Shown here in pieces: positions 4,849 to 19,271 of a stretch of 25,228 nucleotides of DNA. The number at the start of each line of letters is the position of its first letter. Position 1 is the first letter of the stretch. The stretch covers positions 1 through 25,228 of the IMG/VR virus record IMGVR_UViG_3300023222_000163. One strand, written 5' to 3'. Position numbers and translations under genes: made by a program. The stretch comes from a virus. The notes beneath the pieces were generated by a model that did no database searches, had not been told where the DNA came from, and saw only the letters and a list, made by a program, of their open reading frames with translations.

Positions 4849-6129
4849 TTACGCTACACCGTAACCATGTCCGGCAAAGAACGGATTAAGCGTGGCAAAT
4901 GCCGGCAGTAAGTCAAATCTGACCTTCTGCACGTTGGCATCACCGTCTGCGTACTTGCTAACCCGGAGGCTAAAGCCATCCTCAGTGGTTACTGTCGTAT
5001 CCGTCGAGAACAGCTTCGGCAGTTTGACACTGGCGAGGCTGAACGCTTGTGGGTGATAGAACAGGTTCGGCTGGAAGGTAGTGGAATCTGCACTCAGAAC
5101 ATCGACGACATCGCCGTCCACGAGCGCCGCTACTACTGTGTCGTAAGCGCTGTCACGCGAACCTGTGGTTTCCTTGACCGCAGGAGACGAGAAAACGAAA
5201 TCGCCTTCATTTGTCGCCGTCAAAACATCCGCATTCAGAACACCGCGCCAGGGGATATTCGCGCCAGCAGCATCTAAAGCAGGTTCTCTCGTTGCCTGAT
5301 TCAAGATAGATCGTGTCGGAATCTCGAAAACCGTTCCAGCCACATACGTTGCCGCTGCTGCCAGCGTATCGATGTGAATAGTCTGTTGCATCGTGTCTTT
5401 AACAGAAACATACGTTGCAGTCGGTGTTCCATCTATCACGCCAGCTACATCACCTGTTGCGTTGGTGGTGTAGCTTGCTAAAGCCTGAGAGGTTAGTGCT
5501 TGCATGCCGCCAAAGTCACGACTGATCTGTGCCTTCTCCCATGCGGTCTGTACCAGTTGACTAACACTCGTCAATTGGTTTTGCAGATTCGCCATTGCGA
5601 CCTGAGAGAACGGATTCATGATGTAGTACCACGGCATATCACCGGGGACACCAGTCGATGCCATCAAGGCCCCTGCATTAGCGACTTCTGTCCATGTATC
5701 AATCGCCTGACCAGGAGTGCCCTGAACTAATCCAGAATTTTTCATCATAAAGCCCGCGAAATCGACTTCCAGGTCAGTAACGATACGTCGTGCCATTGGT
5801 GCAATGATCTTATCCAGCTGATCAAGTTCCAATGCCTCCTCGACATTGTCCCAATCGACCGACGCAGTGAAATAGTCCTGCACCGTTGCGGTTGCCTTAC
5901 CGGCCGTGATGCTGTCCTTGGTCTCACCCGAAATATCACCACCTGAAGTCCGGATCGAGGTGTAATCGTGCGGACGTTTAATGTCCACCGTGGTACCCGA
6001 TGCCGGTGTGAACTTACCCTCGAATAACTGTGTATCTACAGTTTTCGTAACAACTCGATTTGCCTCAAAGTGCTTTAAAAACACACGCATCAGTTGTCGG
6101 GTGACGTTACTGGTTAAATTGTTAGCCAT
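4849..6129 (-). CDS. Major capsid (coat) protein, P22 gp5-like
   Basis: A 426-residue protein, nearly the same length as P22 coat gp5 (430), starting MANNLTSNVTRQLMRVFLKH. Features of the family are the N-terminal helix and arm, the GTTVDIKRPHDY strand, a central insertion-type beta domain (about residues 220-340) and the C-terminal LLPAFATLNPFFAGHGYG. It has the HK97-type coat fold with P22-style inserted domain by family knowledge, and assembles the head around the scaffold. An AGGAG Shine-Dalgarno stands 14 bases after the scaffold stop. It is flanked by scaffold upstream and gp4/gp10 homologues downstream. Confidence 0.92.
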   Translation of the reverse strand: MANNLTSNVTRQLMRVFLKHFEANRVVTKTVDTQLFEGKFTPASGTTVDIKRPHDYTSIRTSGGDISGETKDSITAGKATATVQDYFTASVDWDNVEEALELDQLDKIIAPMARRIVTDLEVDFAGFMMKNSGLVQGTPGQAIDTWTEVANAGALMASTGVPGDMPWYYIMNPFSQVAMANLQNQLTSVSQLVQTAWEKAQISRDFGGMQALTSQALASYTTNATGDVAGVIDGTPTATYVSVKDTMQQTIHIDTLAAAATYVAGTVFEIPTRSILNQATREPALDAAGANIPWRGVLNADVLTATNEGDFVFSSPAVKETTGSRDSAYDTVVAALVDGDVVDVLSADSTTFQPNLFYHPQAFSLASVKLPKLFSTDTTVTTEDGFSLRVSKYADGDANVQKVRFDLLPAFATLNPFFAGHGYGVA

Positions 6130-12812: not shown

Positions 12813-15017
12813 TTACTCCTGGGCAATATTGAGAGTGCCATTCTCTTGCACAATATTATCACCATCCTCGGTCAGAATAAATCCAAGCGGCACCGGTGTA
12901 TCCTTTATAGTGATCGTAGCATTGCTTGCAGATACAAAAGTAGTACGGCGTGCTGTCGAGACAAAAGTCATGCTGTGGGTCTGCGAACTAAAACTGACCG
13001 TATGGCTATCAGCCAGTATCTCTATAACAATAACACTCGGGATATTGCCAGTAACTGTCAAAGAGCCTGCAGGAACTGCAATAACCGATGATCCTGAAGA
13101 CAGCACCACCAGTGGTATTGCGCCCGCAAAAGTAGCATTTCCGACCCCAGGAACAGCTATATGAGACACCTCAACAGTCGGACTGAGTCCCGTGAAAACG
13201 CCTGAGCCAGTCGCGGGTACCGCTACATGGGAAATCTCAACACTGGGTATCAACCCTGAAAAGATGCCACTACCGACACCTGGGGCTTCAATAAAATCGA
13301 TTCTGACGGTTGGGACAAACCCAGTGAGCGTCAGAGTGCCTGTATTCGGACCTCGTACTACATCACCACCCGATTGTACGGTCGGTTGCAGCCCTACGAA
13401 GCTCGCGCTACCTGTGGCGGGTTCACGAACGTGTGTTATTTCAACACTTGGAGACAGGCCTGAGAATATTCCGGAACCAACCCCAGGCAATCTCACAATG
13501 GTAATGTTTACTGTGGGAACAAGACCTGTGAACGTGCCCGTGCCAAGCGGGGGTCCGCGGATATGATTATCTTCACGGGCAACCACCGGGATAAAACCCG
13601 CAAAGGTAGCATTGCCCACACCCGGAAGCGCTACGTGAGACTCTTCGACCGTGGGCGCAAAACCTGAAATCGTTAAACTACCGACCGGCACCTCAATCAC
13701 GAACCCGAATTGTAGTGTCGGTGCCAATCCTATGAAAGTGGCATTACCAACCGATACCTGTACACCGGTTGCAATAACCGGTACAACACCGGCAAATGTA
13801 CCCGTACCCAAACCAGGGGCGCGGGTAATACCACCTACCGGTGCATTCTTTAGATCAAGTACCTGAAATGAACGCTCAAGGGCGGTATCGGTTGATGAGC
13901 TGTTGGCAACATTTTCCCACTGCACAGCCAAGTCAACTGCAGATCCTGATTTTCCGGTAAGGCCATGAGCAAGACAAAATGATCCACCGTGGGTTGTAGC
14001 GTCAGTAAACCAAATTTGCTCCGCACCTATCCCTGTACCGGCATCAGCAAAGCGAAACTTGACAGCGTTATCAGTACCATAGGTCAGACAGCCAGCAGCA
14101 AGACAAAATACAACAGAGTCCGTACTATCAATAGCAATTGCCGCATCAGACAGGCCCGACATATCCGCATAAGTATTGGGATCGTTTTCACTGGCAGTCG
14201 AAATAAGATCGGTTTGCAGTGAGAAATTAGCCGTTATTTCTACGACCTGGAAGGTTCGTCTCTTACCATTATCATTACCGCTTTGCGGCGTGGCGTTGTC
14301 AATTTCCCACTGTACGGAAAAAGCCGTACTGGCCGCTGCGTTACCTGACGAAATATGCGCAAAACCAGTATCCCATTGCTCATTTGTTGCATCCGCCGAG
14401 TATTTAAGTTCCGGGCCTTCCTGCGTACCACCAACAGCCATACGAAACAAAGCCGTGTCATCTATCCCATCCTGAAGCGGGATATTCGCTATCATCAATT
14501 GCAGGGAACTGGCTGTCGGGGTGAATGTTGCCACCATTGACCCTATATCGGCATAGGTCGCCGGCGTAGTAACCGTATCCGTTGCGTTTTGATCGACCTC
14601 AATGCTTGCTCCAGATGTGATTTCGATGACTTGAAATTCAACAAAGAAATCAGCATCTACAGCCGGGTCATTTGCAATTATTTCGGCTTGTGCTGCAAAG
14701 GTCTGTGATCCAGATATGCCATCTAGCGCGTGAATGAGACAAAGACTATTGCTCTCATCGGCCGCATCAAGAAATCCCGACAGGATAGGGCTTCCAGTAA
14801 TTTCAGACCCGCCACGCGTAAAGCGAAACTTTGCCGTTTTGTCGTTATTGCCTTCATTGAGCTGAATTTGCAGGATAAGAATAACAACGCTGCCAGTACC
14901 GGCAATAGTGACGGTATCAGACATCTCATTCGCACCAGTACCGATATTTCCCCAAGTCGCCGGTATAGTAAACAGGGTATTCGTGCGAATGTCGGTGAGT
15001 AGATTACTGGTCGCCAT
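12813..15017 (-). CDS. Large repetitive surface/tail protein
   Basis: A 734-residue protein with three parts. Residues 1-389 are three tandem units of about 130 residues, each ending in a F-Q-V-[IVL]-[ED]-[IL] strand (131, 259 and 387 region) and each with a serine- or asparagine-marked LCLIHAL/GFAHISS/FCLAHGL strand. Residues 399-668 hold about twelve repeats of 20-26 residues with the core P-x-x-G-[ST]-[GA]-x-[FL]-x-G-[FL]-x-P-[TS]-V. The C-terminal 66 residues contain three short F-V-S repeats. It is beta-rich, with no signal peptide and few Cys. The context of virion genes and the repeat-built body suggest a tail appendage or head fibre. No receptor or depolymerase domain can be identified. 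The start is supported by GGTGG upstream; it overlaps the sulfotransferase-like gene by 14 bp. Confidence 0.7.
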   Translation of the reverse strand: MATSNLLTDIRTNTLFTIPATWGNIGTGANEMSDTVTIAGTGSVVILILQIQLNEGNNDKTAKFRFTRGGSEITGSPILSGFLDAADESNSLCLIHALDGISGSQTFAAQAEIIANDPAVDADFFVEFQVIEITSGASIEVDQNATDTVTTPATYADIGSMVATFTPTASSLQLMIANIPLQDGIDDTALFRMAVGGTQEGPELKYSADATNEQWDTGFAHISSGNAAASTAFSVQWEIDNATPQSGNDNGKRRTFQVVEITANFSLQTDLISTASENDPNTYADMSGLSDAAIAIDSTDSVVFCLAAGCLTYGTDNAVKFRFADAGTGIGAEQIWFTDATTHGGSFCLAHGLTGKSGSAVDLAVQWENVANSSSTDTALERSFQVLDLKNAPVGGITRAPGLGTGTFAGVVPVIATGVQVSVGNATFIGLAPTLQFGFVIEVPVGSLTISGFAPTVEESHVALPGVGNATFAGFIPVVAREDNHIRGPPLGTGTFTGLVPTVNITIVRLPGVGSGIFSGLSPSVEITHVREPATGSASFVGLQPTVQSGGDVVRGPNTGTLTLTGFVPTVRIDFIEAPGVGSGIFSGLIPSVEISHVAVPATGSGVFTGLSPTVEVSHIAVPGVGNATFAGAIPLVVLSSGSSVIAVPAGSLTVTGNIPSVIVIEILADSHTVSFSSQTHSMTFVSTARRTTFVSASNATITIKDTPVPLGFILTEDGDNIVQENGTLNIAQE
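13014..13823 (-). repeat. Twelve tandem 20-26-codon repeats inside the 734-residue gene
   Basis: Each repeat encodes a variant of PGVGSGIFSGLSPSVEITHV. Copies differ at most positions, so the array is old rather than a recent expansion, but neighbouring copies with GSGIFSGL are closest to one another (repeats 6 and 9). Because of the periodicity, long open frames also appear on the opposite strand; these are artefacts. Confidence 0.8.
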
Positions 15018-15432
15018 ACCAATCCACCGCGAACTGCATTTCTTTACCTACATCGGGATACTGACTGGGATCGCACACGCGCTCTGTCATACCGACCGGT
15101 TCCCAAGCAAAACCTTGCCGGTGCGGAATGTCAACAAAAGCACAGGCCGCCTTTTCAAGTTCTATATCGGGTTTTGTAATTGGGAACAAAAACGATTCGT
15201 GATGCTCTGCACGAAAAATAAGCTCTCGCCACGACGCAACAAAGCGGCCAAGCTGGCTCGCGTGTGAATAATAACACTCAATAGGATCGCGCTGCGGTAT
15301 GACTAGCAGTACGTCATCCGTTATAGATGAGCCGGTGTGTTGGTACTCCGGCACAAACCCATGATGTTTGAAAAACGACAATACAAACCGGGTTCCTGTG
15401 GATTGAACAGAAAAGACCCTAAAATGTCGCAT
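15004..15432 (-). CDS. Sulfotransferase-like protein (minimal P-loop)
   Basis: A 142-residue protein. Near the N-terminus VFSVQSTGTRFVLSFFKHHG matches the 5'-phosphosulfate loop of sulfotransferases (S/G-x-x-x-S/T-G-T-x-F/W), and VLLVIPQRDPIECYYSHASQ matches the 3'-phosphate motif (R-x-P-x-x-x-x-x-S/Y), with R48-D49-P50 and S56. A helix with W-R-E-L follows as in the family. The protein is about half the usual length, so it may be a reduced enzyme or a kinase-like relative. The likely role is transfer of sulfate from PAPS to a sugar or protein. The ATG overlaps the upstream stop by 14 bp; a GTG four codons earlier is an alternative. Confidence 0.55.
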   Translation of the reverse strand: MRHFRVFSVQSTGTRFVLSFFKHHGFVPEYQHTGSSITDDVLLVIPQRDPIECYYSHASQLGRFVASWRELIFRAEHHESFLFPITKPDIELEKAACAFVDIPHRQGFAWEPVGMTERVCDPSQYPDVGKEMQFAVDWYGDQ

Positions 15433-15880
15433 TGCGTTTCTCACGAATCACAACACGCGCCAAAACTTTCAGGAAATTATTTCGCTGAGTATCATTGAAC
15501 GAATCCCAATTAGGAAAATTGGCAACCAAAGTATTCCAATCCGTATCATCCTGTTCGATTCTCTGCTGATCAGCCGTCCTTTGTGTGGCATCATGAGCAG
15601 ATAACAAAGCGTCAAGGGCTGCGGCTTCGGCACTGGTTAACGCGATTGTAAATTCAAACCGCACTTCCCCAGGTTGTGCAAAATCTTCAAAATATGATCC
15701 ATCCCGTAGCCTTCTGCGGAGGATCAGCCTTGGTTCCGTTGCGGGAGCGCGGACGAATTGATTGATCTTTTCAAAGCCGGCCAAATGCACCTGAATAAAT
15801 GGCAGCGCCGATGATGTTAATTGCTCCGTCAGACGATCGCGATTAAAATTCTTTAGAACGGTTCTTGTATCGGAAACCAT
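15419..15880 (-). CDS. Unknown protein, possible tail-associated
   Basis: A 153-residue protein. The N-terminal third is helical, followed by beta-like GFEKINQFVRAPATEPRLIL and RRRLRDGSYFEDFAQPGEVR; the C-terminal half is helical with WNTLVANFPNWDSFNDTQRN. No family is recognised and there is no signal peptide. It shares one base with the stop of the secreted-protein gene (TAATG) upstream and overlaps the sulfotransferase-like gene downstream. The AGGGA ribosome site before the ATG is acceptable. Its position inside the tail-gene block suggests a virion or virion-modification role; that is context only. Confidence 0.65.
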   Translation of the reverse strand: MVSDTRTVLKNFNRDRLTEQLTSSALPFIQVHLAGFEKINQFVRAPATEPRLILRRRLRDGSYFEDFAQPGEVRFEFTIALTSAEAAALDALLSAHDATQRTADQQRIEQDDTDWNTLVANFPNWDSFNDTQRNNFLKVLARVVIREKRNATF

Positions 15881-16271: not shown

Positions 16272-16706
16272 TTATGACAAAGTAAAAATACCAGCTGAGT
16301 TCATCTGAATTGTCATCGTGTTCGTGCCAGTAAGATCGAATCCAGAGGTACTAAGTGTTGAATAGCACAACAGAAACCCTGACGTTGCAGAAACCGATTG
16401 CATGATGTACGCATACTTGATACTGGCAATTGACCCAGTAACAATCCAGTCTGAACTGTCAAACTTGCCATTCTGACCTGAAAGGGCATATGTATTTGAA
16501 CTCAGCGTATTGCCACCAGCAGCATATCCGCCACCGGTAACCTGAGAACCTAACGAGGTGAATATAGATACAGCAGCCGTTAGGATGTTTGCCGATGCAC
16601 CAACTGATTGGAGCGTCAAATTAAAAATTGCACTCGCTAAGTCGAAGTCACCATTGCCAAGATGTATCTTAGCGTTGGGGTTAATTTTCCACGCGCCTGC
16701 TGCCAT
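16272..16706 (-). CDS. Virion-associated phage protein (MAAGAW family, unknown function)
   Basis: A 144-residue protein. The opening MAAGAWKINPNAKIHLGNGD, followed by DLASAIFNLTLQS, then a Gly/Ser/Thr-rich middle with GGGYAAGGNTLSSNTYALSG and the strand SIASIKYAYIMQSV, follows a pattern I recall from many phage structural clusters (A-G-A-W-x-x-x-x-x-A-K-x-x-x-G-N-G). Its role is not established; it is likely a small beta-rich virion component. GAGGA eight bases before the ATG overlaps the end of the methyltransferase fusion gene. It is flanked by genes for that fusion and a secreted protein. Confidence 0.7.
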   Translation of the reverse strand: MAAGAWKINPNAKIHLGNGDFDLASAIFNLTLQSVGASANILTAAVSIFTSLGSQVTGGGYAAGGNTLSSNTYALSGQNGKFDSSDWIVTGSIASIKYAYIMQSVSATSGFLLCYSTLSTSGFDLTGTNTMTIQMNSAGIFTLS

Positions 16707-16710
16707 TTTA

Positions 16711-18234
16711 CTATTCCTCTATTAGATCAAAACCAGCTTCAAGACAATGGGCAATAAGTCCGTCACCGTGAACCTTGATATCCAATTTCCTTATCAATCT
16801 TTGTCGCAAGTCCATAAATTCCTTGCATTGACACAACATCCAGCCATCAACAGCAAATGTCCTGCCGTTATTGGTAATGACTCCAACCCTGTTAATATTT
16901 GCCTTAGAGATGTCGTTCTCTGGCTGATCGTAAGCGTGATGCTCCCGATCACCCATGAAACAACTGTCAAATCCGTAAATTTCAATGTCCCTGAAACCCA
17001 GCATTTGTAAAGCAGGAAGACAACGAAGCATAACAGTTGACCCCCCAGGTATGGGATACCAGTCTTTATACATCTCTCCAACTAATTCATCACAGATTTT
17101 TGTTGAGCGTGGATCACAGTTAGCCTGAAATATGTAAGTCTTTTCTGGGGGTAGCTTATCAATCAAGCCCGGATAAACTTGGGATGCCATCATGTAAGTG
17201 TTCTGCTCATCAACTGGATCGACAAACCTTGAATTAAATTCCCTGGCATCGATCATGAACTGGTTCACAGGCCACAGATCGTGTTCTTTCGCCCACGCAT
17301 AGGTGCCGTTCATGGTGATTATCTTGGCGCCGTTCTTCTTGTGTTCTTGTATTTCATCAACAAAGTCGTTGAGAGATGGGCTTCCTCCAAGAACGACAAT
17401 CTTTTGATCTTGCTGTTCTTCAAACGGGCGTAGCTGTTTCAGGCCCTTACTCAGATTTGTCCTGATCTGACTGAACACTATATCCTCACTGGTGTTCATG
17501 TTCAGTTTGTCAAAAGCAAAGCCCTGATGGCCTGAGACAAGAAAAATAACGTGTTGCTTTAATTCAATAGAACGATGCACGATGACACCGTGCTCGGCAA
17601 ACCTCTTCAACCATTCAGAATAACTTAGGACGGTGAGATGTAGTTCGTCCTTGATGTCTGGATGCTGCCCAAAGTGATCTTTGACAGTAGAAATCTGAAA
17701 AAAGATATTCTCACAAGCCTCGAACATAGTATCCAAAGCATCATCAATCTCCGCCGGCGGTAAGTGCTCCATGACGTCGGTACAAAATCCCCAGTCCGCT
17801 CTCAGTGCTGTCTTCTTAGTGATATCATGTTCGACGAATCTATCGCCAAAATGCTCCTTAACGCCCTCGTCAAGACAGTTCCAGGCAAAATCCATTGGCA
17901 TGACATCAAGTGTCTCGTCCAGTCTCATTGCCGCTCTGCCAGTACCACATCCAAAGTCGATCAGGGACAAATCCTTATGTTCTGGCATGATGTCCCTGAC
18001 GGCCTCAAGAAACATATCAACGCATTCTTCACCGGGAGAAACGACACGATAAGCAGGGACATTCCACACCTTGAGATACTTTTGCTGCTCATCCGAAATA
18101 TCCAACAGTTTTGCAACCTGTCCGCCGTCGAGCTTTTTTATCAGTTTGTTTTTCTTTGTCGGCGTCTCTGACGCCGGGCGAATTAAAACCGTAGGTGAAT
18201 GTCCGACCATTCCAACCTTGCCAGTCTTAGTCAT
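16711..18234 (-). CDS. Fusion: SAM methyltransferase plus DUF115/MptE-like domain
   Basis: A 507-residue protein with two domains. Residues 55-240 are a class I methyltransferase with motif I LIDFGCGTGRAA (G95, G97, G99), a motif IV/post region DVMEHLPPAEID (153-164) and a strand DHFGQHPD. Residues 275-500 match the DUF115/6-hydroxymethylpterin-pyrophosphokinase-like (MptE/Maf) fold: VVLGGSPSL at 280-288, TMNGTYAWAKEHDLWP, FMIDAREFNS (D329), PGGSTVMLRCLPAL and a GFDSCF strand. Relatives act on nucleotide-linked sugars in flagellin or surface glycosylation. The likely role is modification of a glycan or small carrier. It overlaps the preceding 48-residue gene by ATGA and has no Shine-Dalgarno of its own. 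Confidence 0.8.
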   Translation of the reverse strand: MTKTGKVGMVGHSPTVLIRPASETPTKKNKLIKKLDGGQVAKLLDISDEQQKYLKVWNVPAYRVVSPGEECVDMFLEAVRDIMPEHKDLSLIDFGCGTGRAAMRLDETLDVMPMDFAWNCLDEGVKEHFGDRFVEHDITKKTALRADWGFCTDVMEHLPPAEIDDALDTMFEACENIFFQISTVKDHFGQHPDIKDELHLTVLSYSEWLKRFAEHGVIVHRSIELKQHVIFLVSGHQGFAFDKLNMNTSEDIVFSQIRTNLSKGLKQLRPFEEQQDQKIVVLGGSPSLNDFVDEIQEHKKNGAKIITMNGTYAWAKEHDLWPVNQFMIDAREFNSRFVDPVDEQNTYMMASQVYPGLIDKLPPEKTYIFQANCDPRSTKICDELVGEMYKDWYPIPGGSTVMLRCLPALQMLGFRDIEIYGFDSCFMGDREHHAYDQPENDISKANINRVGVITNNGRTFAVDGWMLCQCKEFMDLRQRLIRKLDIKVHGDGLIAHCLEAGFDLIEE

Positions 18235-18790: not shown

Positions 18791-18972
18791 TACTCACCCT
18801 TAATTTCTATCTGGGCACGATACTTAGTGAGCGTCGGCACCAACTCAACTCTAATTGCTATAGCTTCTGGCGATGGTTTGCTTCTGAGATGCAGAGCATC
18901 CCTGTTTGGCTCGGCCCAGTGGCAAAGACCAAAATCACACAACCATGCCCATCCATATGCTCGTTTACTCAT
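18790..18972 (-). CDS. 60-residue phage-conserved protein of unknown function
   Basis: A 60-residue protein. WLCDFGLCHWAEPNRDALHL is followed by RSKPSPEAIAIRVELVPTLT. The paired C-x-x-x-x-C with W-A-x-P and the KPSPEAIAIRVxLVP block recur in small phage proteins of replication/recombination clusters, without a known function. A strong AGGAGG lies six bases before the ATG, inside the end of the upstream nuclease gene, whose stop it overlaps (ATGA). It shares one base with the Ref-type gene downstream (TAATG). It may be a small beta-rich partner of the neighbouring nucleases, by context only. Confidence 0.7.
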   Translation of the reverse strand: MSKRAYGWAWLCDFGLCHWAEPNRDALHLRSKPSPEAIAIRVELVPTLTKYRAQIEIKGE

Positions 18973-19271
18973 GTCTGTCCTCCTACCTCATAAGATTTAG
19001 TCACAAGCTCTATGGCCTCTTCGGCGCTCGCCACAATTCGGACTTGGCCCTTCCACGAAGATATAAAGTCCTTTTGGGTCTTGGTGGAACGATTATGTTT
19101 GCCGTAGTCGGTGTTGGGGTTTTTGCATTCGATGTAGAAGTTTCTGCTTCGAAATCCAACAGAGAGGTCCACGGGAGATCCAACAACCAAGACGTCGCAT
19201 CCGATTTGTCTGAGCGCATCAATAATCTCCTGCTGGTTGTGGTCGGTCTGCAGTGCGAAGCGGGGTTTCAT
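18969..19271 (-). CDS. VRR-NUC-like PD-(D/E)xK nuclease
   Basis: A 100-residue protein with the order of a small restriction-endonuclease fold: an N-terminal helix with QQEIIDALRQIGCD (possible E15), G-S-P-V-D-L (D35) and Y-I-E-C-K (E48, K50), then KTQKDFISSWKGQVRIVAS with a Q in the next helix. This matches VRR-NUC / Holliday-junction-resolvase-type proteins common in phages. It likely resolves or trims branched DNA. It overlaps the upstream gene by 4 bp, starts after AAGG, and its end supplies the ribosome site for the 60-residue gene. Confidence 0.8.
   Translation of the reverse strand: MKPRFALQTDHNQQEIIDALRQIGCDVLVVGSPVDLSVGFRSRNFYIECKNPNTDYGKHNRSTKTQKDFISSWKGQVRIVASAEEAIELVTKSYEVGGQT

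Follow-up and report, generated by a model that had tools for sequence, protein, structure and literature searches.

Maf enzymes attach nonulosonic acids to serine or threonine residues of flagellin; their pfam01973 domain resembles Cst-II, and a weak similarity to methyltransferase motifs has been described for their N-terminal Rossmann domain (PMC11339370). The phage enzyme analyzed here shares its PF01973 domain with the central domain of the Maf flagellin glycosyltransferases (5mu5; Campylobacter, Aeromonas and Clostridium), and in both a Rossmann-type domain precedes the Maf domain from N to C terminus. However, unlike Maf, the phage enzyme has a complete SAM methyltransferase domain whose motif I is intact, and it lacks the Maf C-terminal domain. 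It is also phage borne, is encoded beside virion genes, and has relatives in which the order is reversed or the two domains are split. The closest virus analogue is A064R of chlorovirus PBCV-1, a single viral chain that adds sugars (rhamnose) and methylates the terminal one of the capsid glycan (PMC7019647). Such a design thus exists in viruses. The parallel is one of design, and the glycosyltransferase domains of A064R are rhamnosyltransferases from an algal virus, whereas that of the phage enzyme is Maf-like. Mycobacteriophages Che8 and Rita are cited in PMC11256854 as encoding glycosyltransferases and bearing glycans on their major capsid proteins; they are likened to our phage by that description, in which, as far as it deals with them, no fused methyltransferase appears. 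Overall, a Maf-like glycosyltransferase combined with a methyltransferase is of a known kind and not a categorically new system.

The window, i.e., the whole stretch of DNA that was analyzed, is a complete virus record of 25,228 bases. The features discussed below are the following.

16711..18234, minus strand: fused enzyme of 507 aa, SAM methyltransferase plus PF01973 (Maf/DUF115) domain.
17521..18099, minus strand: class I SAM methyltransferase domain, residues 46-238 (Pfam clan matches; fold Z 16-17).
17938..17958, minus strand: SAM motif I DFGCGTG, residues 93-99 (D93, G95 and G97 invariant in 29 relatives).
16735..17511, minus strand: Maf/GT42-like PF01973 domain, residues 242-500 (PF01973 59.7 bits; 5mu5 Z 20.6-20.9).
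17371..17394, minus strand: VLGGSPSL loop, residues 281-288, equivalent to the GxGPS loop in Maf and MptE (pairs with GSGPS in 5mu5).
16912..16974, minus strand: GFDS...HHAYxQPEND, residues 421-441, conserved Asp/His/Gln region.
16272..16706, minus strand: PHROG_644-family partner of 144 aa, proposed acceptor (start 4 nt after the enzyme stop; PHROG_644 E 3.1e-07).
12813..15017, minus strand: repeat-rich (PTV-type) putative fibre or decoration protein of 734 aa (homologues in 82 loci).
4849..6129, minus strand: P22-type major coat protein (PHROG_283 major head protein, E 1.5e-68).

The open reading frame of the enzyme starts with ATG, has zero internal stops and is intact on the minus strand, with exactly the span (16711-18234) that had been proposed in the initial annotation. 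The five motifs named there were all found at the residues given for them: DFGCGTG and VLGGSPSL as above, DARE at 329-332, PGGST at 396-400 and GFDS at 421-424. The central proposal, a methyltransferase fused to a DUF115 domain, was confirmed by the PF01973 match and a class I SAM methyltransferase fold within one 507-aa chain. Its placement in a phage tail cluster proved loose: the gene opens the late structural block and precedes the terminase, portal, scaffold and P22-type coat genes, all on the same strand. Just upstream of it lie genes for a Ref-type RecA-dependent nuclease (PF16786; 18377-18790, minus strand) and for a small nuclease similar to Holliday-junction resolvase PHROGs (18969-19271, minus strand).

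We then considered the two halves of the enzyme separately. For the window protein, no named Pfam methyltransferase family scored above its cut-off, the best being Methyltransf_25 (22.9 bits versus 27), and the subthreshold matches cover residues 86-186. Methyltransf_25 is matched by all 29 aligned relatives (best 2.4e-10), and the methyltransferase of the window enzyme is a divergent subfamily. In a full-length model (mean pLDDT 78.8), residues 46-238 matched solved, SAM-bound methyltransferases with Z scores of 16-17 over about 175 residues, and the modeled domain has the Rossmann-type fold of class I methyltransferases. The residues of motif I are kept, as is the acidic one on the next strand (D93, G95, G97 and D115), and D153, E156 and H157 are likewise invariant in the 29 relatives, so that a loss of SAM-site residues among homologues, against which the initial annotation had to be checked, was not observed. 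The stretch FCTDVMEHIPP is nearly invariant, as is the SAM site.

The C-terminal half, for which similarity to PF01973 had been predicted, matched this family, also named DUF115, MptE-like or MAF_flag10, at residues 259-427 with an E value of 4.1e-16 and 59.7 bits, above the curated cut-off of 34.6. The match was also significant in 61 of 61 aligned second halves, both domain orders included. We modeled the isolated domain from these 61 sequences (pLDDT 92.9), and its top fold match was Maf 5mu5 (Z 20.6, 227 residues, rmsd 3.0); residues 242-500 of the full-length model gave Z 20.9 against the same structure. Sialyltransferases followed at a distance (CstI, Z 9.5; CstII, Z 8.8; mammalian and Campylobacter enzymes, Z 7-10). 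One short relative (L015:7360-7983) matches PHROG_4603, "alpha-2,3-sialyltransferase" (3.5e-18).

PF01973 also contains archaeal MptE/HPPK (8sd5), a 6-hydroxymethyl-7,8-dihydropterin pyrophosphokinase with the same fold. It is more distant from the phage domain than Maf and has another biological setting. The domain might have kept this pyrophosphokinase role, in which case the product would be a methylated pterin or another small molecule. We regard this as very improbable. The Pfam family name speaks for it, and 8sd5 is the second match both by fold (Z 14.4) and in a profile search of PDB sequences (0.0042). However, Maf is nearer by either measure (Z 20.6 and 4.7e-14, respectively), the sequence match to MptE ends before the conserved D...HxYxQ region, which does align with Maf, and a pterin role leaves the virion-protein partner described below without a reason. 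The domain is thus clearly closer to the Maf type than to the MptE type. Because its fold is nearest to Maf, ahead of MptE and the sialyltransferases, "MptE-like" is a misleading label.

The residues that are conserved in the Maf-like domain bear on whether it is catalytic. D423, H432, H433 and Q437 (window enzyme numbering) are invariant in alignment A1, and alignment A3, which holds 61 sequences of both orders, shows an invariant Asp, His and Gln toward the C terminus of the domain; in the profile alignment, these three residues pair with the same residues of 5mu5. The Maf C-terminal helical domain is absent, the enzyme ending at residue 507 and the alignment stopping at residue 503 of 5mu5, whose chain continues. 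The methyltransferase profile showed no sequence match to 5mu5. It is conceivable that catalysis is limited to the methyltransferase, which would directly methylate the partner or some other virion protein, the Maf-like domain being a docking module. The near invariance of the SAM site and of FCTDVMEHIPP would suit this reading, as against a predicted use of a donor site by the Maf-like domain. Nevertheless, we consider it quite unlikely, as the Maf-like domain has its own invariant Asp, His and Gln and a GxGPS-type loop across the 61 sequences of both orders, as expected of an active site. Furthermore, long and short subtypes of the Maf-like fold are both paired with the same methyltransferase.

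To describe the distribution of the enzyme, we combined searches with several queries. Viral contigs searched with the window protein alone gave no match, and its DUF115 half gave zero matches against 50,697 annotated phages, even at an E value of 1. The only good homologue among annotated phages was MW202621.1, in which a methyltransferase of 184 aa and a separate MptE-like gene, with overlapping stop and start, directly follow the major capsid gene. Searching the viral contigs with this split methyltransferase alone yielded 235 relatives. Among the best 80 of these loci, 75 had a Maf-like domain in cis, either in the same open reading frame (62 loci) or in a separate nearby one (13 loci); of the five others, three were cut by the contig end and two carried a different protein, with a GGGxTLW motif, two genes further on. 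The fusion suggested by the initial annotation thus recurs in homologues, and it does so in both orders: the methyltransferase comes first, as in the window, in 39 of the best 80 loci and the Maf-like domain in 22. With the adjacent genes, this makes three arrangements (MTase-Maf, Maf-MTase and split), and the coupling of the two activities is near-obligate in phages. When 72 methyltransferase domains were placed in a tree, sequences of either order fell mostly into clades of their own, and the reversed order had at least two origins. The nearest relative of the window enzyme (locus L083) is 54% identical to it.

A search with an alignment of fused enzymes gave at least 593 confirmed matches in viral contigs, compared to 6 loci in 84,980 prokaryote genomes. 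The fused family is widespread and almost phage specific. The top matches in a viral structure library were CDS of uncultured Caudovirales, for example A0A6J5PVH5 and A0A6J7X5Q0, which carry the automatic names "MptE-like" or "Methyltransferase domain containing protein" and probably belong to the same family. Our literature search turned up no description of a DUF115 or MptE-like family in phages. The family is real and large, and apparently undescribed. Several relatives deviate from the common layout. A reversed-order enzyme lies with capsid genes in a 649-kb contig of a planctomycete (Isosphaeraceae, L160), probably as part of a prophage, and a second, free-standing DUF115 gene is found downstream of the reversed-order fused enzyme in two loci (L026:3188-3892 and L049:7472-8176). 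In a Candidatus Thioglobus contig, a stand-alone relative (286 aa; L159:4122-4982) of the DUF115 domain of the window enzyme had no methyltransferase detected in the same open reading frame.

We next compared the genes surrounding the enzyme. Across several unrelated capsid lineages, the enzyme is encoded next to proteins of the capsid, decoration, adaptor or fibre type. In the 117 loci with the window-type arrangement, an SU10-type adaptor is usually at position -2, the repeat-rich protein at +2 and a tail-fibre-like protein at +3; the repeat-rich family occupies +2 in 71 loci and lies five genes downstream in the window. For reversed-order enzymes, the preceding genes encode the major head protein and a decoration-like virion structural protein. 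Split versions are found either after the major capsid gene or close to head-completion genes, in the latter case upstream of a confirmed sulfotransferase.

In six split loci (L012:1868-2467, L014:1582-2178, L016, L017, L018 and L020), the sulfotransferase directly follows the methyltransferase (PF13469/PF17784 in L012), and the Maf-like gene, the methyltransferase and the sulfotransferase form a three-gene module among the head-completion genes. Between sulfotransferase and capsid genes, two loci (L014:2151-2660 and L017:7770-8300) encode a Rossmann-like GGGxTLW protein of 170 aa with no Pfam match, perhaps a further offshoot of the Maf/sialyltransferase fold. In the window, a 146-aa gene (15004-15444, minus strand) has the stretches STGTRF and RDPIECYYSH, which are reminiscent of the 5'-PSB and 3'-PB sulfotransferase motifs. 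We take this as a likeness of motifs and did not assign the gene as a sulfotransferase: neither Pfam nor tblastn nor a pairwise comparison with the confirmed phage sulfotransferase gave a match.

In the clade of the window, a PHROG_644 protein of about 150 aa follows the enzyme within a few bases. Across the 117 window-type loci, a PHROG_644-type gene was found at -1 in 74 and at +1 in 97. When viral contigs were searched with the +1 protein alone, the enzyme lay directly upstream in 80 of 80 loci, which represent a close clade (78-100% identical) and are not independent. A more diverse +1 profile found the enzyme upstream in 46 of 49 usable loci, immediately so in 42. For the -1 paralogue, which served as a control, the enzyme came next in only 3 of 80 loci. 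Moreover, the +1 partner was the best conserved of three proteins compared in 16 distinct phages with all genes: the mean distance was 0.20 for the partner, compared to 0.40 for the adaptor and 0.46 for the -1 paralogue. In this clade, the enzyme has a dedicated partner in the +1 PHROG_644 protein, which is the likely acceptor.

The partner contains 26% Ser+Thr. We did not retain this richness as proof of an acceptor: 154 actinobacteriophage records contain PHROG_644 homologues but no enzyme, and the one homologue examined was equally rich in Ser and Thr. Reversed-order enzymes have no PHROG_644 partner and would thus need another acceptor. The -1 type (IMG/VR loci L164-L242) is very common after SU10-type adaptors in environmental phages. 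It is mostly followed by fibre-like proteins rather than by other enzymes, which led us to reject the notion that many different enzymes are carried as cargo at hotspots next to PHROG_644 paralogues.

With regard to other sugar-related genes, each of the 27 phage records of relatives with any PF01973 match had exactly one. No CMP-sugar synthetase was found in 31 records of relatives, most of which are fragments; the donor would therefore have to be host derived. GT2 genes occurred in 1 of 32 relatives (L126), which has two just upstream of the enzyme. In the nearest relative (L083:5194-9335), a TPR protein, two methyltransferases and a glycosyltransferase-like protein lie between the capsid gene and the adaptor and enzyme genes; neither Pfam nor a PDB search confirmed the last (L083:8319-9335) as a glycosyltransferase.

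Solo relatives of the methyltransferase are present in bacterial contigs. One of them, in a Rhodospirillales MAG (L162:9330-16495), lies beside FlgE, FlgK and FlgL as well as further methyltransferases, a layout like that of a flagellar modification island. Such relatives indicate that this chemistry exists on bacterial surfaces. The enzyme could modify a surface glycan or the lipopolysaccharide of the host late in infection, for instance to mask receptors against the loss of virions on debris or for superinfection exclusion, its location among virion genes reflecting late expression only. The sulfotransferase adjacent to some phage versions fits as well, sulfotransferases frequently acting on surface glycans. 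We nonetheless judge this explanation unlikely, because a host-surface enzyme would not be expected to pair so strictly with a small protein of the PHROG_644 family, which sits among virion genes; in addition, neither a membrane anchor nor a lipid-linked-sugar gene was seen beside the enzyme in the inspected loci. Of the two targets that the initial annotation had left side by side, virion or host, we favor the virion, since virion genes surround the enzyme gene in several capsid lineages that are unrelated, and since it has a dedicated partner. Its suggestion of two activities in one chain with a link to surface glycosylation is in good agreement with the fold, which is closest to the flagellin glycosyltransferase Maf, and with the near-obligate pairing in three arrangements.

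We infer a reaction, a sugar, an acceptor, an order of steps and an effect as follows, and give the scheme an even chance of being correct: the two-domain phage enzyme would glycosylate a virion protein and then methylate the sugar. The C-terminal Maf-like domain, of sialyltransferase-type fold, would transfer one nucleotide-activated sugar, most likely host made and of the nonulosonic acid type, to Ser/Thr of the virion protein encoded by the next gene, which in the clade of the window would be the PHROG_644 partner. The N-terminal SAM-dependent domain would next methylate the added sugar or, less likely, the protein. The outcome would be a methyl-capped particle glycan that may alter adsorption, stability or recognition. 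More tentatively, we propose an undescribed and widespread phage cassette of writer and substrate, in which one enzyme would attach and methyl-cap a sugar on a dedicated small virion protein (the PHROG_644 "+1 type"), and which would have arisen repeatedly, in several capsid lineages, through fusions that place Maf-like domains before or after the same methyltransferase.

Few phages have been reported to have glycosylated particles, and this family offers hundreds of candidate phages. As the enzyme and its likely acceptor are encoded side by side, the idea is testable with two genes. The annotation "hydroxymethylpterin diphosphokinase MptE-like" is attached to many phage proteins that probably are Maf-like sugar transferases. 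Finally, the family may bear on the origin of the degenerate, methyltransferase-like N-terminal domain of Maf.
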